DNA of 44,914 nt from a virus, in the IMG/VR virus record IMGVR_UViG_3300037189_017940, positions 1 to 44,914 of that record; one strand, given 5' to 3'. The notes under the pieces are model-generated. The model was given only the letters and a program-made list of their open reading frames with translations, searched no databases and was not told where the DNA came from. Below, in pieces: positions 193 through 44,914 of the stretch. Both the position numbers and the translations under genes were made by a program. Each line of letters starts with the position of its first letter. Position 1 is the stretch's first letter.

Positions 193-225
193 GATAGCTA
201 CCCAAATTTAATTTGGGTAGCTATC
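193..225 (+). terminator. 15-bp perfect hairpin, probable terminator
   Basis: GATAGCTACCCAAAT (193-207) pairs with ATTTGGGTAGCTATC (211-225) around a three-base loop. It sits between the stop at 184 and the gene at 249, and TCTATTT follows. The T tract is weak, so it may slow or process the transcript rather than end it. Confidence 0.7.
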
Positions 226-248
226 TCTATTTATGAGAGAGAGAGAGA

Positions 249-686
249 ATGAATTTTCATACCAAAGCATCATACGAACAAAACGGAGTAAAAGCCCATT
301 TCTTATTTGAAATGACCGCAAGTAAGAAACTACAATTAATAATTTATCATGATGAACCATGTATAGATCATGTAACTATTTTTCCAATTTTGGCATCTTT
401 TATTAATTGGAGAAAATATTTCAAAGTTGAAGATTTACTTTCTACTTATCATACATTAGATGTTGAAAAATTTTGTAAGTTTATTGATAATTTTGTTTAT
501 GAATTTGAAGATTCTTATCATGAGGGAGAACTTATTCAAATTATGCCAACTAAACCTGATATAGTAATTCCGAATACAGATGGCAAATGGCACAGATGTT
601 GGTACAAAAAAGAAAAATATGGAAAGATTATTCCCATTTCTGGAATGGACCCAACTCCAGTTGTTGTTTATAAGGAGGTTATTTAA
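249..686 (+). CDS. Hypothetical protein, possible paralogue of the 991-1476 product
   Basis: 145 residues, no recognised domain, no signal peptide or membrane segment. A purine-only stretch (GAGAGAGAGAGAGA) directly before the ATG can act as ribosome site. The stretch around residues 18-30 (FLFEMTASKK) resembles FLFGMTSGG in the protein at 991, and both have a helical segment mid-protein (LDVEKFCKFIDNF against ISPDLFEFVQRFI). The two flank a member of the CP-I/V family, with which this gene overlaps by one base (TAATG). Function unknown. Confidence 0.75.
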   Translation: MNFHTKASYEQNGVKAHFLFEMTASKKLQLIIYHDEPCIDHVTIFPILASFINWRKYFKVEDLLSTYHTLDVEKFCKFIDNFVYEFEDSYHEGELIQIMPTKPDIVIPNTDGKWHRCWYKKEKYGKIIPISGMDPTPVVVYKEVI

Positions 687-994
687 TGAAGATTTTAGTT
701 AACGTAACCCAAACAGATATCAATCAAGGCAGTCCAGCTTGTCTTTCATGTCCTGTAGCTTTAGCTCTTCATAGAGTCGTTGATTGTTACGAAATAAGTG
801 TTCGTTTGAAAAGAATAAAGTTTTTTCGCAATTTATCTGATTCGGGGACAGCTATTGATACTCCTGTAAATGTGTATAACTGGGTAGCTCACTATGATTA
901 TACTTTTAAAACATTGGAGCCTAGGTCTAACGTAAAGCCTTTTAGTTTTGAGCTAGAAATTCCAAATTCAATTGCAGATCTAATAAAACAATGA
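686..994 (+). CDS. CP-I/V family small protein, paralogue 4 of 4
   Basis: 102 residues. It starts with VNVTQTDINQG, then CLSCPVALALHR, and ends with PFSFELEI, the same order of conserved blocks as in the proteins at 41731, 42303 and 43011. The shared pattern is V-x-V-T-x-x-D-I/L-x-x-G, C-x-C-P-I/V-A, an aromatic-D segment and a C-terminal (P)F-x-F-x-x-E. Similar small proteins are common in phages and some bacteria but have no assigned function as far as I know. AAGGAGG lies 8 bases before the ATG. It overlaps the previous stop (TAATG) and the next start (ATGA), so the three genes are translationally coupled. Confidence 0.85.
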   Translation: MKILVNVTQTDINQGSPACLSCPVALALHRVVDCYEISVRLKRIKFFRNLSDSGTAIDTPVNVYNWVAHYDYTFKTLEPRSNVKPFSFELEIPNSIADLIKQ

Positions 995-11979: not shown

Positions 11980-13239
11980 ATGACCATTTCTATAAGCCCC
12001 GCTCAAATGAACGATCCTCTATTTGCATCTCAATATGAATCGCAAATAGACCAAGCAATTTTATCTACACCTGAGAATCCGGATTTATACATACTTAAAT
12101 CTGTGTGTCTGCTTCACGCAGGTAAGTACGAAGAAGCATTGAAATATGCTAAAAAAGGTGTTGGAGCAGATCCTAATAACTTAACAAGCTATGTAACTTT
12201 AGCATCTTGTTATCATCATTTAGGAGAATTAGAAGAAGAGTATAATACATATGCATATGCATATAACAAATGTAACCATATTCCTTCTATTAACTGGAAT
12301 TTTTCTCATGTACTTCTTCGCAGAGGTAGCGATCAATTAGGGTGGACTCTTTATGATTGGAGAAAAGTCCATCTCCCTAATCATACTAGATTTAGACAGC
12401 CTGACATAACTCAAACGTTACTAAAAGGCGGAACTTTATTTGTTCATGCTGAGCAGGGTCTAGGAGATCAGATACAATTTTTAAGATACATTCCCACTCT
12501 AAAAAAGTATTTTGATAAAATTATTTATGAATCTTCTCCTGAACTATATCATTTGGTCAGTGATAATGCAGATAGCCTTGGTATAGATTACGTAATTTGT
12601 AGATCAAAAGATTTTTCTGTCAACGTAAAATTTGATCATCATTGTTCAGTAATGGACATACCTTTGTACTTTGTAAAAGTCTCTGTTTACCCAGAAGATT
12701 TTAAAGAAAATATGTATGGTAGCCTACCAAACTGGATAAAAGAAATTAGAAAATCTGTGATTGAAGAATGGGATAAGTCCCTTTTTTCTAATTTTAAAAG
12801 CTCAAATCAGAAAACTGTTGGGTTAAACTGGAGAGGATCTCCTAATCACCCCAACGATAAAAATAGATCTATACCCCATCCAGATATATTTAAACCGTTA
12901 TCTGATAATGTTTTAATATCTTTGGATCTTGGGGAGCCAGTTAAAACAGATTACATGCTATACAATGTTAGAGACGGACTTCCAAATGTTGCTTATACTG
13001 CGGCTTTCATTAAAAACCTAGACGTAGTAGTTACTGTAGATAGTATGATAGCCCACCTAGCTGGATCTATGGGTAAGAAATGTATAATGATGTTACCCCA
13101 TTTAAGCGAATGGAGATGGGGACTAAATGACACAATTACCCCACTTTATTCGTCTATAACTATGGTAAGACAGGGGCCAGACCGAAAATGGGAACCCGTA
13201 GTAGATAAAGTAAAAGAGATAATTCATCATGAAATATAA
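11980..13239 (+). CDS. TPR-domain glycosyltransferase (GT-B, GT9/TPR type)
   Basis: 419 residues. Residues about 28-100 form two TPR-like repeats (LYILKSVCLLHAGKYEEALK, then the PNNLTSYVTLASCYHHLGEL block). The catalytic part has HAEQGLGDQIQFLRY (156-170), GLNWRGSPNHPNDKNRSIP (281-299) and VTVDSMIAHLAGSMGKK (351-367) followed by LPHLSEWRWG. These are the hallmark blocks of bacterial TPR proteins with a heptosyltransferase-like fold, which use nucleotide sugars. AGGAG lies 10 bases upstream. Its place inside the head operon suggests it glycosylates virion protein, or alters host surface sugars; substrate is unknown. Confidence 0.88.
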   Translation: MTISISPAQMNDPLFASQYESQIDQAILSTPENPDLYILKSVCLLHAGKYEEALKYAKKGVGADPNNLTSYVTLASCYHHLGELEEEYNTYAYAYNKCNHIPSINWNFSHVLLRRGSDQLGWTLYDWRKVHLPNHTRFRQPDITQTLLKGGTLFVHAEQGLGDQIQFLRYIPTLKKYFDKIIYESSPELYHLVSDNADSLGIDYVICRSKDFSVNVKFDHHCSVMDIPLYFVKVSVYPEDFKENMYGSLPNWIKEIRKSVIEEWDKSLFSNFKSSNQKTVGLNWRGSPNHPNDKNRSIPHPDIFKPLSDNVLISLDLGEPVKTDYMLYNVRDGLPNVAYTAAFIKNLDVVVTVDSMIAHLAGSMGKKCIMMLPHLSEWRWGLNDTITPLYSSITMVRQGPDRKWEPVVDKVKEIIHHEI

Positions 13240-20781: not shown

Positions 20782-21026
20782 TGCACGCAGAAACTAATTT
20801 AAAAAATTGGATAAAAGAATTATCTGCTAGAACTCACGGTCAGACAGGAAATGTTAAAACCGTGTTTGGTAGACAACTAATTTTTCTTAAAGATAGTTCT
20901 AAAATAATGCAGTTACCTAACTTGGGTACTATTTCTATGCAAGATTTAGATTTAGCTTCTCCCACTTATGGAATGTATTATGCGGCTGTGGATATAGATC
21001 GTGTGGATGGCGGGGTTATAAGATAG
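20781..21026 (+). CDS. Small tail protein
   Basis: 81 residues, unknown. It overlaps the upstream gene (TAATG) and the next (TAGTG), thus coupled on both sides. It ends with a hydrophobic/acidic strand YYAAVDIDRVDGGVIR. Position between two large tail proteins suggests a baseplate part or chaperone. Confidence 0.65.
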   Translation: MHAETNLKNWIKELSARTHGQTGNVKTVFGRQLIFLKDSSKIMQLPNLGTISMQDLDLASPTYGMYYAAVDIDRVDGGVIR

Positions 21027-24000
21027 TGCTTGCTGGTAAAAGACTTGAAGCTAAAAGAGTCAAACTAGGTTTGAGCATTGATAGTTCAAAAAGCTTTTCA
21101 GGTGACGGTACTCATAAATTTGGTTGGGCAGCCTCTCTTCAAAGTTATAGTATATTTAATATTGCGTCTCTCATTAATGGTATACGAATAGAAATTAACT
21201 CTACAGAACTTACTCCTGTAAGAAATGCAAGAATTATAATTCCATCTTTATCTATAGATACTACCAATACTATCGGTTCTTATGAAGATTATGTTTTAGC
21301 CGAAGTTTTTTTGGTTGATTTTTTGCTGTACGAAACATTTCTTGGCTTGTGGAGAATGTCTATTGGTAGTGTAGAATTTAAAGTCAATGGAGTTTTAGTT
21401 GCTACTCTTGGTGGCGGTACTTTAGACTCTACTGGGTTAGGTCCGGGTTATGTTCCTCTACTAGGTATTCCTCCTAAAGTAACTGGAAGTTTGTTTAATA
21501 GTGTCACAGGATTGCCATCTAACTATTCTTATTCTTATACTCAAGAAGGCAATGTTCATTGTTCTTACGGCATACAAATAAATGACGGAGATAGTTATAT
21601 TTATATGCCTGTCTCCGTCCCTTCCTCTGTAATACCTTCTTGTTTTAGTGTGTGTACTTATTGTATGAGTATGCCTGCAATAGTTCAAGGTACTACAACT
21701 GAAAATATTGTACTCCACTTAAAGAATAACGGCACAAAAGTCTTTGCTATAACAGATACTACAGAATATGATGAAGGAACTAGTGAACGTCAGTATGGTT
21801 CTTTTTGGGTGGTACCTAATCTTGATAAAAGTGTTGTTAAACTAGGAGACAGTTATGGTTCTTTAATTCAAAGAGGTGGAATACCATATACAAAATATAC
21901 AGGAAAAAGACTTTGTATAACTTCTGATTCGTCAAAAATTCCCGCTCCACCCCCTCCAAGACCTAATCCATATAGTGAAACCGCAACTTCAACTGGAAAT
22001 TTAACTAATAGTTATAGTGCTTATTTGGATACAGTTTTTGATACTGCTTCTATAATAGAAGATCCTCTCGGAGAGACTTCTTGGCTTCCAGTAGATATAA
22101 CTTACGATAAGCAATATCTTCTTCAACAGATACCCACAATACCAAATCAAGTGGTGGCAGGGGAGACTTTAACTTTTGTTTACCCTAGTAAAGTTCAACA
22201 TAGAACAAAATACGGAGATCCCAATAGTGATATGTTGGGATATCTTTCTTGGGATGATGGAGTATCGACTCCCACTGAAATAAATAACATAATCACTTAT
22301 GTAAGCTATAATACACATCCCCACTGGAGTTATTTTTATCATCCTAGGAATTGGAATGTAGATGGTTCTTCTGTAAATTGGGAAACTTATTGGGCTCCTA
22401 TTGGTGATCAGTTTTTAAGTCATCCTTCTCTGCCAGGAGATAGGGACGTTCAAAAAAGAACTTCATTAGTTTCGGCTCCCTTATTAGAAGGAGGAAACTC
22501 TAGTTTTATAGAATCAATAGCTTTTGGAAAAAAAACTAGTTGGTGGGGTCTGCCTACTTTTGATATAGACAGGCCATCAATCCCATCTAGTATAACTGCT
22601 GAACTATCTACTGCAAGATGGTCCTCTAGCGATGCCATTATTTCTACGGAATCTGGAAAAATAAAAGTAACCTCCAGTGGTCCTAGTACATTATCTGTAA
22701 ACTATAATCTTGCTGATTGGAATTCTTATCCTAGATTATTACCATTACTCACTAAGGAATTTGTTTTTAATTGGGACTCTACTAATGTAAGTTCTATTAA
22801 AGTATTTGCTGTTGGGTCTGATGGGGTTGAATGGCAGATATGTTCTTCTCCCGGAACTTATCCTTGGAGTACCTCATTAATAAATAAAAAATACTCCGGT
22901 AGTTGGATTCAAGATTGGGGATTGACTGATGTTACAGATATTGGAACTGACATACCTGTTAATGGAGAATCTGTAGTTGCTTATAATAACAATATAAGAG
23001 TTATTAATCCACAAGTTTTGTCTGCAAGAGGAGCAAAAAGTCTCAGATTTGAGATAGTTTTTATTAATCCGGCAACCCCAGTAAAAATACATTTACCTGT
23101 ATTTAATATAGAAAATACCTGGAATATTTATCAAGAATCTAGGCAATTTGGGTGTGCTATAAATGAAAATGGATCGTGTTTCAGATTTGGTCAATCTAAT
23201 TTTTGGAATTATTTATTAAACGCATTTGAGTATCCCCCTTCTGTATTACAACCCGGTTCTCAAACCACTGTATTAGATTGGCTATGCTTCAAAAGAGTAG
23301 TCTTAGAAGGAATAGGTCCAACCGATAGTTTGCTAACCGAGTTAAATAGTCTTTACAAATTACACATAGAATGGAATACTTTAATTCATATAGCTAATGA
23401 TACTACTGCTTGGATATGTAATTATGGGGATAATAATGATTTAGTTCAAGCGGTACTTAGCAACACATTACAGCCACCTCCACTAATGATGTTTCCTTGT
23501 TTTGACAGAGACTCAAATCTTACCCCCACTTCTAATTTTTGTATGAAAGTATGGGCGTTTGATCAAATGAATCGTTATCATATAACTCCTAAAGTTACCT
23601 CTGATAACGTTACACTTATTAAATCTCCGGGATCTAACTGGTTAATAACAGATACATCTGAGCCTAATGGATGGACAGTCAGGTACCATCAGCATGTTGT
23701 AGATAATTCAGAAACTGATTATAAATTAAGTGCGTCATCAAAACAATATGCAAATTTGAGACCTTGGCACGGTTTCTTTTTTGTGGGCAATGATGATTCT
23801 ACTTCCTCCACAAATGGAGTAGACATTGTTCATGATAGAAATACCGGAGAATATTTTTATTGTTATTTGATCAACAATGATTTGTGGGTAAATAGATCTT
23901 ATTCCTTACACCCCACTGTAGAAGATGAAATCACTCAAATTACTTTCTCTGCAGACGTAAGTGAGCCAGCAATAATAATTGCTCCAGATGGGGTGTTGTA

Positions 24001-24400
24001 TGTCGTATATACTCGTGGGACTAATGTCTATTACAGATCTAGTACCGATCAATCCTTATCTTGGAACTCGGAGATACTTTTGTTTAGTGGCAAATCAAAA
24101 TGTAGAATAGCAACTAATCATGAAAATAATGATGTTGTTTTTGTTGCTTTTGGTTATGTGTCTGGGACTTCAGGACCTGGATATTTATATTCTATTCCTT
24201 ACGGTGGGGGAGATATAAGTTTGCCATCCCCCACAATTATAAAAGATCAAACAGCAACTAATATAGTTGTAGCTGACGAACAATTTGATATAAGCTACAT
24301 ATCTGGCCAAGTATACCTTTTATGTAAGCTAGACGGTAGCTCGTTACATTCCCACTATTCATCAAAGGATGGTGGACTAACTTTTGATAAAATTTTCTGA
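21026..24400 (+). CDS. Very large tail/baseplate protein with Asp-box (BNR) C-terminal region
   Basis: 1124 residues from a GTG start that overlaps the previous TAG. The protein is beta-rich throughout. A proline-rich linker (PAPPPPRPNPYSETATST) stands near residue 310. The last 180 residues contain BNR-like blades: YRSSTDQSLSWN, then HYSSKDGGLTFDKIF at the end, separated by strands like VLYVVYTRGTNVYY. Such Asp-boxes occur in sialidase-type beta-propellers that bind or cut glycans, so this is probably a receptor-binding component. No catalytic residues can be assigned. Confidence 0.72.
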   Translation: MLAGKRLEAKRVKLGLSIDSSKSFSGDGTHKFGWAASLQSYSIFNIASLINGIRIEINSTELTPVRNARIIIPSLSIDTTNTIGSYEDYVLAEVFLVDFLLYETFLGLWRMSIGSVEFKVNGVLVATLGGGTLDSTGLGPGYVPLLGIPPKVTGSLFNSVTGLPSNYSYSYTQEGNVHCSYGIQINDGDSYIYMPVSVPSSVIPSCFSVCTYCMSMPAIVQGTTTENIVLHLKNNGTKVFAITDTTEYDEGTSERQYGSFWVVPNLDKSVVKLGDSYGSLIQRGGIPYTKYTGKRLCITSDSSKIPAPPPPRPNPYSETATSTGNLTNSYSAYLDTVFDTASIIEDPLGETSWLPVDITYDKQYLLQQIPTIPNQVVAGETLTFVYPSKVQHRTKYGDPNSDMLGYLSWDDGVSTPTEINNIITYVSYNTHPHWSYFYHPRNWNVDGSSVNWETYWAPIGDQFLSHPSLPGDRDVQKRTSLVSAPLLEGGNSSFIESIAFGKKTSWWGLPTFDIDRPSIPSSITAELSTARWSSSDAIISTESGKIKVTSSGPSTLSVNYNLADWNSYPRLLPLLTKEFVFNWDSTNVSSIKVFAVGSDGVEWQICSSPGTYPWSTSLINKKYSGSWIQDWGLTDVTDIGTDIPVNGESVVAYNNNIRVINPQVLSARGAKSLRFEIVFINPATPVKIHLPVFNIENTWNIYQESRQFGCAINENGSCFRFGQSNFWNYLLNAFEYPPSVLQPGSQTTVLDWLCFKRVVLEGIGPTDSLLTELNSLYKLHIEWNTLIHIANDTTAWICNYGDNNDLVQAVLSNTLQPPPLMMFPCFDRDSNLTPTSNFCMKVWAFDQMNRYHITPKVTSDNVTLIKSPGSNWLITDTSEPNGWTVRYHQHVVDNSETDYKLSASSKQYANLRPWHGFFFVGNDDSTSSTNGVDIVHDRNTGEYFYCYLINNDLWVNRSYSLHPTVEDEITQITFSADVSEPAIIIAPDGVLYVVYTRGTNVYYRSSTDQSLSWNSEILLFSGKSKCRIATNHENNDVVFVAFGYVSGTSGPGYLYSIPYGGGDISLPSPTIIKDQTATNIVVADEQFDISYISGQVYLLCKLDGSSLHSHYSSKDGGLTFDKIF

Positions 24401-36244: not shown

Positions 36245-36415
36245 ATGGATATAAAAACTCTCGAAGCAGTCCGTGAGCTTATTCGTCTTAAAATTGGACA
36301 TATAGCCGCTGACGATAATCAAATTGATGGAGATTCTAAAAGATTAGTTCTTCATGAATTAAGAGACCAACTTGAGAATGAAATACAATCACTTAGAAAA
36401 CCTAACCAAACCTAA
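36245..36415 (+). CDS. Small hypothetical protein between tRNA and polymerase
   Basis: 56 residues, helical and charged (MDIKTLEAVRELIRLK, then KRLVLHELRDQLENEIQS). It overlaps the polymerase start by 38 bases. No Shine-Dalgarno; it may be translated from an mRNA whose 5' end is produced by tRNA 3' processing 13 bases upstream. Length is too short for a domain call. Confidence 0.6.
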   Translation: MDIKTLEAVRELIRLKIGHIAADDNQIDGDSKRLVLHELRDQLENEIQSLRKPNQT

Positions 36416-38711
36416 CTGTGAGGCCTGCACATTAAATACTGGCAATAATAAAATTCTTAGTGGGTCGGGGGTAACTGAGTCTCCCGACCTATTTTTAATT
36501 TTTGAAAATCCAGAATCAAGTGAGCATTATTCTGGTAAACAATTTTCAGGCAGAAGTGCTAAAACAGTTCATAAAGTAATTCAAGAAATTTCTCGGCAGC
36601 TTGGCAGAGAAATAACTGTTTATGCTACTTATGGGGCAAGCTGTAGACATTTATCAGACAGACCTCCCAGCCCACATGAATTATTCCAATGTAACGGAAG
36701 ACTTGTGAGCGAAATAAGCTTAGTAAAGCCCAAAACTATTATTTTGTTTGGCAGTAATTTGTGTTCTGCTTTATTAGAAGTAGAATCTATTTCCAAAAAT
36801 AGAAATAAGATACACAAATTTCAAGGTATACCCACAATAGTAACCTTTAGTCCTAAATTTGTTTTAAATCCCAAAAATCACGCAAGTTTTCCATCTTTTG
36901 TTCAGGATATTGGATTCGCTATAGAGCAAACAGATCCCACTACAAAAAGAGATTGGGGCAAACTATCTTATATTATTGTAGATGATGATAAGAAATGTAT
37001 TGATCTTTTCAAGCTACTTGCGCAAGAAGGCGAAGTATGTTCTTTGGATATTGAAAATACTACCGGGTTTAATCCTTACAATGCTTTTATTCTAGTAACA
37101 GGTATAAAGCATAGAACCGGTACTTACATTATTCCCAACGAGGTATTTTTAAGAAACAAAGATCATTTTGATCCTAATACTCATGTAATTGTTCACAATG
37201 CAGTTCATGAGTATAAGTTTTTCAATGTTCATTATGGCATTCGTCTTACTAATATTGATGACACTATGCTAATGTATCATCAAATAGATGAGAGAACTAA
37301 TGAATGGGCGGCCAAAGATCTTAAAACATTAGGTCAAAAAATACTTGGCGCACCTGATTGGGACGGGCCAGTAAAACCTTACATATCTAAAATGCAGTTT
37401 TGTCCTAAAGATTTAATGCATGAGTATCTAGCTTATGACGTAGATGTTACTTATGGGTTGTACGATGCTTTAGTTCCAGAACTTAAAAAAGATAATGTAT
37501 GGGATGCCTACAATACTGTAGTAAGGCCAGTTATCCCATTTGTAAACAAAATGTCTGCGAATGGTATCTTGATTGATCTCTCTTATGTAGAAGAAGTAGA
37601 AAAAGATCTTACCGAAGATATAAGTCATACCCAAGAAAGATTCAGAGATCTAGTGGGGTTATCTGATATTAATATGGCTTCCCCACAACAACTAGCAGTT
37701 TTACTATATGATGAAATGCAGTTTCCAATTCAAGGTGGAAAGAGGTCTACCGACGAAAAAACTATTTCTAGTTTGATTGCTAAATTCCCCGAGAAGTCAG
37801 AGGCTCTAGATTTAATTGTAGAGTTTAGAACCCTATCTAAGCTACTAAATACTTATGTTTATGGTATTTATGGTAGGGAAGTAAATGGTGTTTGGAGAGA
37901 GGGATTACTTAGACCCGATGGCCGTATTCATGCGGAGTTTAGACAAGCGGGTACTTCTACTGGAAGACTTTCGGCTGAATTAGTCCAAACAATTCCCAAA
38001 AGAAAAGGCCCACTAATTAAGCGTATGTTTATACCAGATGAAGGTATGCAATTAATTGAGGTTGACTATAAACAGCTAGAACTTAGGATGGGGGCTCATA
38101 TGAGCAATGACCAAGTTTTAATTGATTATATTAACTCAGGTAATGACATGCACACTGATATGGCTAGACTTATTTTTGGTATTTATGATATTACACCGGA
38201 CCAGAGATTTGTTGCTAAATCTGGAAATTTTGGTGTTATGTATCGCATGGATGCCAGAGCAGCTTTTTATAATCTAAAGAAAGAGTTTCCAGCAATGACT
38301 ATGGAGCTTGCTAATAAGATTGTAGATATGCCGCGAGATAAGTTTAGAACACTATTTCTTTGGTCTACAGAGATGCTCAGTGAAGCCATCAAGAATCACT
38401 ACACTACTACTATATTTGGAAGGAAAAGAAGATTCCCACTACTTACAGAAAGTAATTGGGACGAAGTTCTTAAACAAATGTCCAATTCGGGTATTCAAGG
38501 TAGCTCATCTGATCTTAACTCTTTGTGTTCTATGAGATGCGATAGAGAGTTACCTATTAAATCTCACTTTCTTATTCACGATGCTTTTCTTGCAAGCATT
38601 CCTATGAGATTTGATCCTAAAGAAATTACAGGAAGAATGGAAGATGTTCCTTTTAAAACTAACGTTAAGTTTGAGGTTGACTACAAAGTTATGGATAGGT
38701 GGGGAGAATGA
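36378..38711 (+). CDS. DNA polymerase I (family A) fused to an N-terminal UDG-like domain
   Basis: About 777 residues from ATG 36378 (TTG 36372 is a poorer start). Residues 1-185 resemble family-4 uracil-DNA glycosylase: C14, C17, C89 and C105 as an iron-sulfur set and FENPESSEHYSGKQFSG as motif 1; the usual late His is replaced (TFSPKF), so activity is uncertain. The exonuclease has DIENTT (D224, E226), NAVHE with Glu where Asp is usual, and YLAYD. The polymerase has VDYKQLELR (motif A), RFVAKSGNFGVMYR (motif B, with Arg for the usual Gly) and LIHDAFL (motif C, HDA for HDE). Replicates the phage genome. Confidence 0.93.
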   Translation: MKYNHLENLTKPNCEACTLNTGNNKILSGSGVTESPDLFLIFENPESSEHYSGKQFSGRSAKTVHKVIQEISRQLGREITVYATYGASCRHLSDRPPSPHELFQCNGRLVSEISLVKPKTIILFGSNLCSALLEVESISKNRNKIHKFQGIPTIVTFSPKFVLNPKNHASFPSFVQDIGFAIEQTDPTTKRDWGKLSYIIVDDDKKCIDLFKLLAQEGEVCSLDIENTTGFNPYNAFILVTGIKHRTGTYIIPNEVFLRNKDHFDPNTHVIVHNAVHEYKFFNVHYGIRLTNIDDTMLMYHQIDERTNEWAAKDLKTLGQKILGAPDWDGPVKPYISKMQFCPKDLMHEYLAYDVDVTYGLYDALVPELKKDNVWDAYNTVVRPVIPFVNKMSANGILIDLSYVEEVEKDLTEDISHTQERFRDLVGLSDINMASPQQLAVLLYDEMQFPIQGGKRSTDEKTISSLIAKFPEKSEALDLIVEFRTLSKLLNTYVYGIYGREVNGVWREGLLRPDGRIHAEFRQAGTSTGRLSAELVQTIPKRKGPLIKRMFIPDEGMQLIEVDYKQLELRMGAHMSNDQVLIDYINSGNDMHTDMARLIFGIYDITPDQRFVAKSGNFGVMYRMDARAAFYNLKKEFPAMTMELANKIVDMPRDKFRTLFLWSTEMLSEAIKNHYTTTIFGRKRRFPLLTESNWDEVLKQMSNSGIQGSSSDLNSLCSMRCDRELPIKSHFLIHDAFLASIPMRFDPKEITGRMEDVPFKTNVKFEVDYKVMDRWGE

Positions 38712-41600: not shown

Positions 41601-41744
41601 ATGAAAGAAAGTCAAAAAGATCCCCACCAGACTATGTATATATTTATACTGGTTATGTTGTTTGTTTTATCTAGCTTAATGGCTATCGCAGAGAAAAATG
41701 GTATGTTCTTTAAGGAACCGGTGAACTGTTATGAGAACTATTAA
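41601..41744 (+). CDS. Single-helix membrane protein (47 aa)
   Basis: It has a polar N-terminus of about 11 residues and one strong hydrophobic helix (MYIFILVMLFVLSSLMAIA, 12-30), then a polar tail with Cys ending NCYENY. It overlaps the next gene by 14 bases. Small phage inner-membrane proteins of this shape include superinfection-exclusion and holin or antiholin proteins; no assignment is justified. Confidence 0.68.
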   Translation: MKESQKDPHQTMYIFILVMLFVLSSLMAIAEKNGMFFKEPVNCYENY

Positions 41745-42060
41745 TGTCTACGTAACTAGGAAAGATATTTTGGAAGGTAAGTGCATGGCATACTCCTGTC
41801 CAATTGCCTTAGCCGTAAACAGGGCATTAAAAAGAAGCGGCTATGCTCATTATGAATGTACTGTTAATCAAATTAACATAAATATTTATTATGGAAAAAA
41901 TCTTTTATTCCATAGGATAGAGCCACCATATAAGTGTGCGCATTTTATAAATATGTTTGATAGCTTTCTTGAGGAAGATAAGAAGCAAGCTAAGCCATTT
42001 AAATTTTCTTTTCAGATTCCAGATCCGATAGAGGTAAAAAATGTATTTTCAAAAGATTAA
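41731..42060 (+). CDS. CP-I/V family small protein, paralogue 1 of 4
   Basis: 109 residues. It starts INVYVTRKDILEGKC, then YSCPIALAVNRALKRSGY (22-39), HFINMFDSF and PFKFSFQI near the end. The same blocks occur in the proteins at 42303, 43011 and 686. The CP-I-A helix segment and the VT-x-x-D-I-x-x-G start suggest a small alpha/beta fold with one or two conserved Cys. No function is known to me. The gene lies in a chain of overlapping small genes. Confidence 0.85.
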   Translation: MRTINVYVTRKDILEGKCMAYSCPIALAVNRALKRSGYAHYECTVNQININIYYGKNLLFHRIEPPYKCAHFINMFDSFLEEDKKQAKPFKFSFQIPDPIEVKNVFSKD

Positions 42061-42313
42061 TAGTGGGGTATTTGCTTACGGCATAGGCCCACAAAAAGGA
42101 ACATTATTCGTCCGAAGAACTAAAGGTGCTGTTAAAGAATCCTTTAGTTTCTCACTTATGGTTTATCCGGCTAATATTTGTGCTGTAGAGCCAGATAAAT
42201 TTCACGGTTCATTAAATGATTGTATTTCTGCTATTGAAAGATTTGCTGGAAATATTAATCATTTTTATGTAGAGGCATTTAAGAAATGCTTGGAGGATTT
42301 AGATGCAGACTAG
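42041..42313 (+). CDS. Small hypothetical protein
   Basis: 90 residues; AGAGGT six bases before the ATG; overlaps the previous gene by 20 bases and the next by 11. Alpha/beta composition (GTLFVRRTKGAVKESFSFSL then a helix CISAIERFAGNINHFYVEAF). Unknown. Confidence 0.68.
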   Translation: MYFQKINSGVFAYGIGPQKGTLFVRRTKGAVKESFSFSLMVYPANICAVEPDKFHGSLNDCISAIERFAGNINHFYVEAFKKCLEDLDAD

Positions 42314-42620
42314 CCCACTGGAAAAAGTACATTTTTACGTAACTCAAAAAGACCTTAAAAAAGGAATAAAATATAATTGTGATAAATGTCCCGTGGCTAG
42401 ATCTATTAAACGAAGGCTTAAACATAGAAATATAATTTATATAGCAGTAACTCCTAGCTTTGTTACCTTTATATGTAGTGATTCTACGGTTGTGACCAAT
42501 CCTTTGCCAGAAAAAGTTAGAGATTTTATAATCAATTTTGATAACATGGGTAAACATTCTGTAAAATCATTTAGGTTTTATTTGGAGTTTGATGAATCGT
42601 TTGTGGCTGAATTAAAATGA
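42303..42620 (+). CDS. CP-I/V family small protein, paralogue 2 of 4 (divergent)
   Basis: 105 residues: VHFYVTQKDLKKG, CDKCPVARSIKRRLK, FIINFDNMG, SFRFYLEFDE. It keeps the block order but is more basic than its relatives and has a short N-terminal extension. TGGAGG lies seven bases upstream of the ATG. Overlaps next gene by ATGA. Confidence 0.83.
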   Translation: MQTSPLEKVHFYVTQKDLKKGIKYNCDKCPVARSIKRRLKHRNIIYIAVTPSFVTFICSDSTVVTNPLPEKVRDFIINFDNMGKHSVKSFRFYLEFDESFVAELK

Positions 42621-42832
42621 AAACATTAACCAAAGTACCGACTACACTTTCAGTTAGAACTGAACTTTCAGTAACTGGAATTGAAACGATAAATGGAGTT
42701 GAATGCCTAGTGGGGGATAATTTATCTACCTACCAAACTAGGCATAAAATATTTGCGGTGTTTAATGGGGTTAGATACTTGACTGACATTAAATACAAAG
42801 ATTTCAAAACAATGGTGGAAAAATACAAATGA
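42617..42832 (+). CDS. Small beta-rich hypothetical protein
   Basis: 71 residues with strands LSVRTELSVTGIETINGVE and KIFAVFNGVRYLTDIKYKDF. ATGA overlaps on both sides. Looks like a small barrel, but no family is recognised. Confidence 0.66.
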   Translation: MKTLTKVPTTLSVRTELSVTGIETINGVECLVGDNLSTYQTRHKIFAVFNGVRYLTDIKYKDFKTMVEKYK

Positions 42833-43014
42833 TATCTATTACAATCTACGGATTAGCTTGCGAAGATCAATTAGATCTTATGCAATGGGGTCACGTTCAT
42901 TATCCAAACGCTAACATAAAGCATTACTACGATATTAACGATGAATGTCATTTAGAAATTAAAGGAACTTTGTCAGAGTGTGCTGGAATTTGTGCCCATT
43001 TGGAGACATTATGA
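42829..43014 (+). CDS. Small hypothetical protein with several Cys and His
   Basis: 61 residues: ISITIYGLACEDQLDL, then HVHYPNANIKHYY and CHLEIKGTLSECAGICAHLE. Four Cys and five His suggest metal binding, unproven. The C-terminal strand-helix unit resembles the 38708 product. Coupled by ATGA overlaps. Confidence 0.66.
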   Translation: MISITIYGLACEDQLDLMQWGHVHYPNANIKHYYDINDECHLEIKGTLSECAGICAHLETL

Positions 43015-43370
43015 AAGAACCTAGATTTAGAACTGCCTTAAAGCTTAATGTTTACGTTACTAAGAAAGACATTAAAGAAGGAAATCCGTGTAAAGGTTAT
43101 TCTTGTCCTATCTCTAATGCTGTTAATAGGATTCTTAAAAAGAATGGGTATCATTGTATTTATGTATTCTCTAATGTTGTGGGGATACATTTCTACACTC
43201 ACGATAAAGATTTAGAAGCTAAGAGATTGTTTTCTGTAGAAGTGCCGCCTAAATGTTGTGTCTTCATAGAAGACTATGATACAACTAAAATAAACAAATG
43301 CTACCCCTTTAGATTTGTGTTAGAAATTGATGCTCTTCAACTAGCAATCCTTGAGGGAACTAAAAAATGA
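43011..43370 (+). CDS. CP-I/V family small protein, paralogue 3 of 4
   Basis: 119 residues from ATG 43011 (GGAG six bases upstream, ATGA overlap); the GTG at 42978 is rejected as too deep in the previous gene. Blocks: LNVYVTKKDIKEGNPC, YSCPISNAVNRILKKNGY, CVFIEDYDTT, PFRFVLEID. Closest in sequence to the 41731 product (VYVT-K-D-I, YSCPI, AVNR-x-LK), pointing to a fairly recent duplication. Confidence 0.85.
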   Translation: MKEPRFRTALKLNVYVTKKDIKEGNPCKGYSCPISNAVNRILKKNGYHCIYVFSNVVGIHFYTHDKDLEAKRLFSVEVPPKCCVFIEDYDTTKINKCYPFRFVLEIDALQLAILEGTKK

Positions 43371-44476
43371 ACAAAACAACTATTGAGCAAGCACAAGAGA
43401 TTATTTATGGCGATCGAGAAAAGACTTACGGCAACCCATCCGAAAATCTAGATAAGATTGCTAAGATATGGGAAACTATTTTTGGTATACCAGTTACTAA
43501 AGAACAAGTATGTTGGGCTATGGTCGGGTTAAAGATGGCGCGCGCATCTAATCCTAATGCAGAACGCCATAAAGATAATGAAATAGATGCTATTGGTTAT
43601 CTGGCATTGATTGATAGGATTAATGTTTGCCCTTCAGTTACAGTTAAACCAGAAAATTTTATAGAACAAGAAAACAGATTTAAGATTCCAGATTCAGTAG
43701 TTCCCATTGAAGCTGAATGGCCTTCACTTGGTGAATTTATGTCTTTTACTTTTAACTCAAATTCAATATCTAGGGTACAAAATCCTACAACTAAACATAA
43801 ATTGGTATCTTTTTTTGAAGAGCAAAATGAGTATTACCAACCAATTTTTCCTGAAATTTTTATATCTGATAAAAATTGGATAGACATTAAAAAACATTTA
43901 GAAGATTTTTATGATATTATTTTTTCTTTTGGAGATTTTAATGGTATCATATTCCCTTTTGTAGAACACGGAAATCTGTCAGAATCCATTTGCACTAAAT
44001 ACGATTTAATTTATATTAAGCTTGTGGGTTACATCCATAAAAGTGTTTTGGATGTTATAGAAGATAAAATTCATGAAATGCTTATTCCAATAGAAACGAA
44101 TGTAACTGGAATTTCTGATAAATTGGTTTACGCTATACACTTAAAAGGTTATTTGACCCACTATTTTACATTAAAATCAAATAACTATAATTTCCATAGA
44201 CTGTTTACTTATGCATTTGAAAGAGCAAATAAACTTTATGCTTCTTTTGTAGTAGCCAAATTATACGATAAAGCTAAAAACTCCGTTACGGAAGTTTTGT
44301 TCTATTCTTATAATAGAGGGGGGAACAATACTAAAACTTTGAAATTTGAGGATGGTTCTGCGGGTAAGTATCATGTAGATAAAGTTTTAGTAAAAAGTAT
44401 TACTAAACATTGTTTTTTATCTATTTCAATAGATAATTTTGATAGAATTTTAACGTGGGTTAAAGATAGTGAATAA
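43367..44476 (+). CDS. DUF6378-like N-terminal domain fused to a large unknown domain
   Basis: 369 residues. Residues 1-85 match the pattern of phage proteins of the DUF6378 type: IIYGDREKTYGNPSENLDKI, then a helical core and HKDNEIDAIGYLALIDRI. That domain normally stands alone at about 80-130 residues and its helical, acidic pattern recalls MazG-like folds, though no activity is established. The remaining 280 residues are unrecognised and more AT-rich in codons (long runs of ATT, TTT, AAT). A genuine fusion of two domains is the simplest reading. Confidence 0.75.
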   Translation: MNKTTIEQAQEIIYGDREKTYGNPSENLDKIAKIWETIFGIPVTKEQVCWAMVGLKMARASNPNAERHKDNEIDAIGYLALIDRINVCPSVTVKPENFIEQENRFKIPDSVVPIEAEWPSLGEFMSFTFNSNSISRVQNPTTKHKLVSFFEEQNEYYQPIFPEIFISDKNWIDIKKHLEDFYDIIFSFGDFNGIIFPFVEHGNLSESICTKYDLIYIKLVGYIHKSVLDVIEDKIHEMLIPIETNVTGISDKLVYAIHLKGYLTHYFTLKSNNYNFHRLFTYAFERANKLYASFVVAKLYDKAKNSVTEVLFYSYNRGGNNTKTLKFEDGSAGKYHVDKVLVKSITKHCFLSISIDNFDRILTWVKDSE

Positions 44477-44586: not shown

Positions 44587-44874
44587 ATGTTAACTCTTAA
44601 AACGACCGAAGAAGGTAATAATATTCTTAAAGTATCAGAAATTGGTGCTTATGATTTTTCTTTATGCGTTCAATATATAGAAGATTATGGATTCTTCTAT
44701 GACTTTAGCACAGGTGAATCTAAAATTGTTCTAACTGAAGATAAAGGTGATGCTGATGATCTTCGTAGTTTTGTAAAATCTTTGGCTAACGAAGATACCG
44801 AAGAATATAATACTTTGGTTAACGAAGTTCTTCCGGAAGTAGAGAAGTTTATTAACGAAGTGGAGCCAAATTAA
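44587..44874 (+). CDS. Small acidic hypothetical protein
   Basis: 95 residues, very acidic (DKGDADDLRS, ANEDTEEYNTLV) with predicted strands early (NILKVSEIGAYDFSLCVQYI) and a helix at the end. An acidic, DNA-mimic-like charge is possible but not shown. Its TAA overlaps the start of the small gene that crosses the circle junction. Confidence 0.72.
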   Translation: MLTLKTTEEGNNILKVSEIGAYDFSLCVQYIEDYGFFYDFSTGESKIVLTEDKGDADDLRSFVKSLANEDTEEYNTLVNEVLPEVEKFINEVEPN

Positions 44875-44914
44875 TGAGAGTTACTTTACCTGCAATGAGA
44901 GTTACTTTACCTGC
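44873..44914. repeat. Right copy of the 42-base terminal overlap
   Basis: Identical to bases 1-42: two tandem 21-bp units. See the left copy. It marks the point where the circular genome was opened. Confidence 0.9.
44875..44914 (+). CDS. Start of the junction-spanning small gene (partial)
   Basis: The first 13 codons (MRVTLPA repeated) of the protein continued at 2-184. Cut by the window edge. TAATG overlap with the gene ending at 44874 and GTGGAG ten bases upstream support this start. Confidence 0.7.

Follow-up and report, generated by a model that had tools for sequence, protein, structure and literature searches.

Divergent multi-copy members of the phage family phrog_19191: clustering, rapid turnover and a possible action on host or defence components

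The 44,914-bp phage record analysed here over its full length (G000; hereafter the window) carries four small genes, copies 1 to 4 (Table 1), that are new members of phrog_19191, an already catalogued family of unknown function. We propose that the family undergoes a birth-and-death expansion of small stand-alone binders, which would act on host or defence components; the functional part of this proposal is tentative, and we hold it with slightly less than even confidence. What is shown is the evolutionary part: the copies are homologous, agree in their predicted fold elements, lie in clusters, vary in number and change fast in protein, a recombinant is documented, and the family is nearly absent from bacterial genomes. 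The PHROG entry, which agrees with the window copies in length and motif order, carries no function; what is new beyond it is the recurrent multi-copy state, the clustering, the turnover mechanism, the fold model and the contrast in evolutionary rate.

Four paralogous genes across the genome junction

The window encodes a fusion of a uracil-DNA-glycosylase (UDG) domain with a family A DNA polymerase, a primase/helicase, a Sak4-like annealing protein, an SNF2-type helicase, a terminase, a portal and a major head protein. A first-pass annotation had described copies 1 to 4 as one family clustered across the genome junction, and had held that a profile missing the other copies would speak against their kinship. 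The four are true paralogues. Their pairwise BLASTP identities range from 25 to 42% (E 1e-19 to 4e-4), copy 3 being nearest to copy 1 (41%), and profiles built from three copies recovered each remaining copy with E-values of 9e-20, 1e-12, 3e-21 and 2e-11. These leave-one-out profiles found no further match among the 574 reading frames of the window, and a profile made from 79 outside members alone retrieved exactly the same four copies (E 4.5e-16 or better). Thus, the searches from inside and outside members agree on four copies and no fifth. All four match phrog_19191 over profile positions 2-85 of 91, nearly the whole domain. In the 65-member alignment assembled for this study, which includes the window copies, every sequence matches this PHROG. 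In the tree, copies 1 and 3 grouped together with a support of 91 on an alignment of only 88 columns, and a single clade of the four copies and those of the L001 locus was not rejected (p-AU 0.84; 88 columns). A single origin of the four copies is compatible with this sequence tree, not demonstrated by it. For copy 3, we favour the ATG at 43011, because GGAG lies upstream and the start overlaps the previous stop; the longer form from the GTG at 42978 appears less likely.

Table 1. Features of the window discussed in the text (all on the plus strand).
Feature	Position	Strand	Remarks
Hairpin	193..225	+	perfect, 15-16 bp, followed by TCTATTT; terminator-like; separates the group of copies 1-3 from the group of copy 4
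Cassette, gene 249-686 and copy 4	241..987	+	blastn boundaries; cleanly absent from G001
Copy 4	686..994	+	102 aa; phrog_19191 E 1e-7; without G001 orthologue
Copy 1	41731..42060	+	109 aa; phrog_19191 E 1.3e-9; orthologue in G001 (L001), 82% identity
Unrelated gene between copies 1 and 2	42041..42313	+	90 aa; 97% identical to G001; dN/dS 0.04
Copy 2	42303..42620	+	105 aa; phrog_19191 E 1.3e-9; orthologue in G001 (L001), 80% identity
Copy 3	43011..43370	+	119 aa; phrog_19191 E 4.5e-6; without G001 orthologue
Cassette, copy 3 plus the larger part of the DUF6378 gene 43367-44476	43017..44459	+	blastn boundaries
Two 21-nt direct repeats	44873..44914	+	42 nt in total; identical to positions 1-42

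The clustering across the junction proved real: the contig of a relative (G001, IMGVR_UViG_3300010334_000104, 42.5 kb; loci L001 and L097-L099) continues across it. The 42-nt repeat shared by the two ends is a terminal repeat, as in a contig that is circular or circularly permuted. The cluster had also been regarded as a single rightward array of overlapping genes. The overlaps, mostly of 4 bp between start and stop, were confirmed, but the cluster is probably not one transcript, since the terminator-like hairpin precedes genes 249, 686 and 991. When the remaining small genes of this cluster were compared with one another by BLASTP, no homology was detected.

Conserved core and predicted fold

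The ordered motif VT-x-x-[DHN]-I ... G ... CP-[IV]-A ... FD ... PF-x-F is present in the family, and its T, D, G, C, P, D, F and F are invariant across the four window copies; copy 2 has SF in place of PF. The shared ordered blocks reported by the first-pass annotation therefore stand overall, except for two details. A fixed C-x-C does not hold, as the upstream cysteine lies at a spacing of 2-4 in the window and is often absent elsewhere, and CP-I/V-A is not common to all copies, copy 3 carrying CPIS instead of CPIA. Zinc binding through two cysteines was considered and rejected because the upstream cysteine is not conserved. As the motif scan itself demanded Cys-Pro, conservation was recounted on 32 copies collected outside the scan: Cys and Pro were each kept in 31 of the 32, and the following Ala and the Asp of FD each in 30.

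Two of the four copies were modelled by AlphaFold2 from a 65-row alignment, copy 2 with a pLDDT of 92.5 and a pTM of 0.84 (model ma8c2809b14d2) and copy 4 with a pLDDT of 95.6 and a pTM of 0.87 (model m41357b55e199). The predicted elements follow an identical order in both (strand, helix, helix, three strands, helix, strand, helix), and the models portray the family protein as one compact domain, some 80-105 residues long. Unrelated folds, which had been named as evidence against the family, were not what the models of the genes at 42303 and 686 predicted. Foldseek against PDB returned nothing significant for the models of copies 2 and 4 (best E 0.6 and 1.1), VIA-align gave a best Z of 3.0 for one model and none for the other, and a profile search against PDB sequences reached an E of 5.9 at best. 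Altogether, no solved structure matching the predicted models was found by these searches, which may miss a distant match and do not prove a new fold. In BFVD, nine phage proteins matched at E < 1e-3, and the named ones were uncharacterised Gordonia phage proteins. Siglec-like adhesins (Z 3.0) and Dri1 haem domains (Z 2.1-2.6) among the VIA rows were dropped as too weak for evidence, as was Acb4 in Foldseek (E 2.4), which carries no evidential value.

Distribution of the family

The distribution was surveyed by an exact fixed-spacing motif scan, which captures canonical members and fails on some of the window copies, so that the following counts are lower bounds. The scan found at least 67 stretches in viral contigs and three more with one residue fewer; across the genomes of bacteria and archaea (84,980 species), it gave two matches, both of which adjoin phage-like genes as judged from the open reading frames. 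A plasmid search yielded no family match. The family thus appears to be seen almost only in phages. The cultured carriers recovered by tblastn were exclusively Gordonia phages, and the family is spread across approximately 48 unrelated locus groups, Gordonia phages included. Scans with Pfam and NCBIfam gave no match above chance, and literature searches retrieved nothing on phrog_19191 or on these gene clusters. In the Gordonia phages Pupper (gene 220; L011:2995) and Skog (gene 47; L016:4995), the annotated starts are apparently 12 nt too far downstream, and an earlier in-frame ATG restores the MRVTVTQ start known from relatives.

Clustering and turnover of copies

Two to five copies, usually adjacent, were found in 21 of 50 whole records (five in Keelan, four in two viral contigs), a count that includes some non-independent records (G009 and G030 have coordinates in common) and depends in a few cases on weak matches. 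Of the 61 copies in multi-copy records, 44 lie within 1.5 kb of another, against a random expectation of 6.3. Having four copies is not a peculiarity of this genome, as multi-copy clusters are common in the family. The Gordonia phages Keelan (genes 76-78 and two more), RobinSparkles (108/110/111), Gibbles (102/104/105) and Fryberger (78/79) carry similar clusters of two to five mostly adjacent copies in short overlapping genes annotated as hypothetical proteins, although their genomes are larger (67-82 kb), were reached solely via this family, and hold copies about 30-40% identical to those of the window.

G001 was the only close relative of the window phage found in viral contigs. Many of its core proteins are 97-99% identical to those of the window, and the whole contig contains exactly two family copies, the orthologues of copies 1 and 2. 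Copies 3 and 4 each belong to a cassette (Table 1). At the position of the former cassette, G001 has an unrelated stretch of approximately 250 bp instead; the latter includes gene 249-686, which encodes a 145-aa protein assigned to no family in Pfam or PHROG. Of the four cassette borders, three coincide with or adjoin the start of a gene or a start/stop overlap, and the remaining one (44459) is just before a stop; whole genes are thus exchanged. The DUF6378 gene that travels with copy 3 encodes 369 aa, with DUF6378 at the N-terminus (PF19905, E 2.9e-21) followed by about 280 residues of no known family.

Neighbouring copies also recombine at their conserved 5' block, for which Orchid gp103 offers direct evidence. 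Among the members of Orchidvirus, RobinSparkles and Gibbles have three copies each and Orchid has two. Compared with its relatives, Orchid gp103 is a hybrid: its upstream DNA and initial codons correspond to those of their first copy and its body to that of their second, and the switch point falls inside a 47-bp block common to both copies. Decaying members were also encountered: a truncated copy immediately before an intact one in L067 (5287-5394), and diverged copies lacking Cys-Pro in L031 (9940-11273).

Rate of protein change

Between the window and G001, most genes show a dN/dS of 0.02-0.08, with the bulk at about 0.03-0.05, whereas the values are 0.21 for copy 1 and 0.79 for copy 2; the two proteins change several-fold faster than most of the genome. 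The unrelated gene between them (Table 1) is slow amid fast neighbours and serves as a built-in control. Amino-acid changes were tested for an excess over the rest of the genome, from which gene 991, two wrong pairings of paralogues and a tail-region gene that had recombined were removed; the odds ratio was 3.0 for copy 1 (P 4e-4), 8.7 for copy 2 (P 5e-8) and 4.6 for both pooled (P 4e-10). Copy 1 is under purifying selection. The value for copy 2, inflated by a low dS (7 changes), could reflect either positive selection or relaxed constraint, which are inseparable from one genome pair. Other small genes of the cluster are also fast (dN/dS 0.36 for 44587 and 0.33 for 991; 42617 likewise), so the region itself may account for some of the signal.

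Gene neighbourhood

Copies 1-3 lie directly downstream of the genes for the SNF2-type helicase and the UDG-polymerase. Nevertheless, no partner gene recurs in more than 4 of the 48 unrelated locus groups; the few recurring neighbours comprise genes for a polymerase and a helicase, one that is recombinase-like and one with NADAR, besides one antisense artefact. In Gordonia phages, the family genes are surrounded by hypothetical genes. Long open frames in GC-rich loci, inspected for fusions hinting at function, gave no second domain. That no partner gene is conserved speaks against a multi-protein complex encoded by adjacent genes, and in all likelihood the family proteins work without a dedicated phage partner next to them.

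Possible functions

The first-pass annotation had assumed a selected role, perhaps through several host targets or as subunits of one complex. A selected role is supported by the intact frames, the retention of Cys, Pro, Ala and Asp (30-31 of 32) and the dN/dS of copy 1. In the explanation that we prefer, copies are gained and lost as gene-sized cassettes and through recombination of neighbouring copies, and then diverge rapidly around a shared core. Such quick gain, loss and rewriting tends to mark genes directed against host targets that keep changing. Each would be a small stand-alone binder of a host or host-defence component, and several might be retained since they recognise different or changing targets. 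The action after infection, the binding to a host component and the diversity of targets between copies are what we infer here, the last from its fit with fast protein change and variable copy number. A role in counter-defence is plausible. Anti-CRISPR, anti-restriction and signal-sponge proteins as a class are likewise small, fast-evolving, variable in copy number and mostly restricted to phages, a working resemblance only, as no relation in sequence or fold to the family was found. The conserved Cys-Pro, on the other hand, would also be compatible with one catalytic or ligand site common to all copies instead of a diversity of targets.

Such a site would be expected if the proteins were ligand-binding sponges or small enzymes, the copies binding or modifying one class of small molecule (e.g., a defence signal or a nucleotide) with differing specificity, in a pocket including the Cys that opens the first long helix and the Asp of FD. 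We regard this as unlikely. The Cys, Pro, Ala and Asp are indeed kept while most columns vary, and small single-domain proteins of similar size act as signal sponges in phages. Nonetheless, neither the structure comparison (E >= 0.6) nor the PDB profile matched a solved sponge or enzyme, no second polar residue is as strictly kept as the Asp, so that a catalytic set is not evident, and the Thr and Cys-Pro positions resemble helix caps, one copy having Asp in place of Cys. It is less probable still that the proteins serve inside the phage as regulators or accessory subunits of its replication or transcription machinery. The polymerase and helicase genes adjoining copies 1-3 would fit this idea, but the few neighbours that recur, in no more than 4 of 48 locus groups, are for the most part genes widespread in phages, the Gordonia phage copies are placed among hypothetical genes, and the core replication genes have a several-fold lower dN.

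That the four copies assemble into a hetero-oligomer in the window phage is distinctly improbable. The shared fold and the partial co-location are in its favour, but G001 with two copies and the many phages with one make a fixed four-part complex unnecessary, and copy 4 is located beyond the terminator-like hairpin; together with the lack of a recurrent partner gene, this weakens the earlier suggestion of subunits of one complex. We assign similarly little probability to a mostly neutral turnover, in which a recombination-prone gene leaves extra copies of little or no function that are being lost. The high dN/dS of copy 2, the truncated remnant in L067 and the motif-less copies in L031 are what this would predict, yet the four window copies keep intact frames and the core motif, copy 1 shows a low dN/dS, and multi-copy clusters occur independently in many unrelated phages, with clustering far above chance.

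Extending the preferred explanation, phrog_19191 might represent an unrecognised, broad family of host-targeting phage proteins, with a fold unlike solved structures, in which tandem recombination and cassette gain provide each phage with its own set of inhibitors; in this general form, we consider the idea doubtful. Small accessory genes of phages mostly occur singly and offer no handle. For this family, by contrast, there is a fold model of high confidence and a strictly kept core motif, close relatives differ naturally in copy number, and a recombinant is known from a genus of cultured Gordonia phages; experiments on what drives repeated duplication of small genes, and on whether duplication marks an arms race, are now practical.

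Other genes of the window and of related loci

The polymerase (36372-38711) contains an N-terminal domain of the UDG superfamily (Pfam UDG, E 2.5e-11, residues 37-179) and a 3'-5' exonuclease in one chain, and its homologues recur in 4 of the 48 locus groups. Related genes near family members were found in three unrelated locus groups (L084:8703-9257, L073:617-1036 and L015:8355-8810), and both of those tested (L084 and L073) have a NADAR domain. In the structural cluster after the head genes, the gene at 11980-13239 encodes a TPR protein with a weakly glycosyltransferase-9-like C-terminus (E 0.0026). The 1124-aa protein encoded at 21026-24400 is only 36% identical to its counterpart in G001, between flanks of 89-98% identity, and looks like a swapped tail or host-recognition protein.
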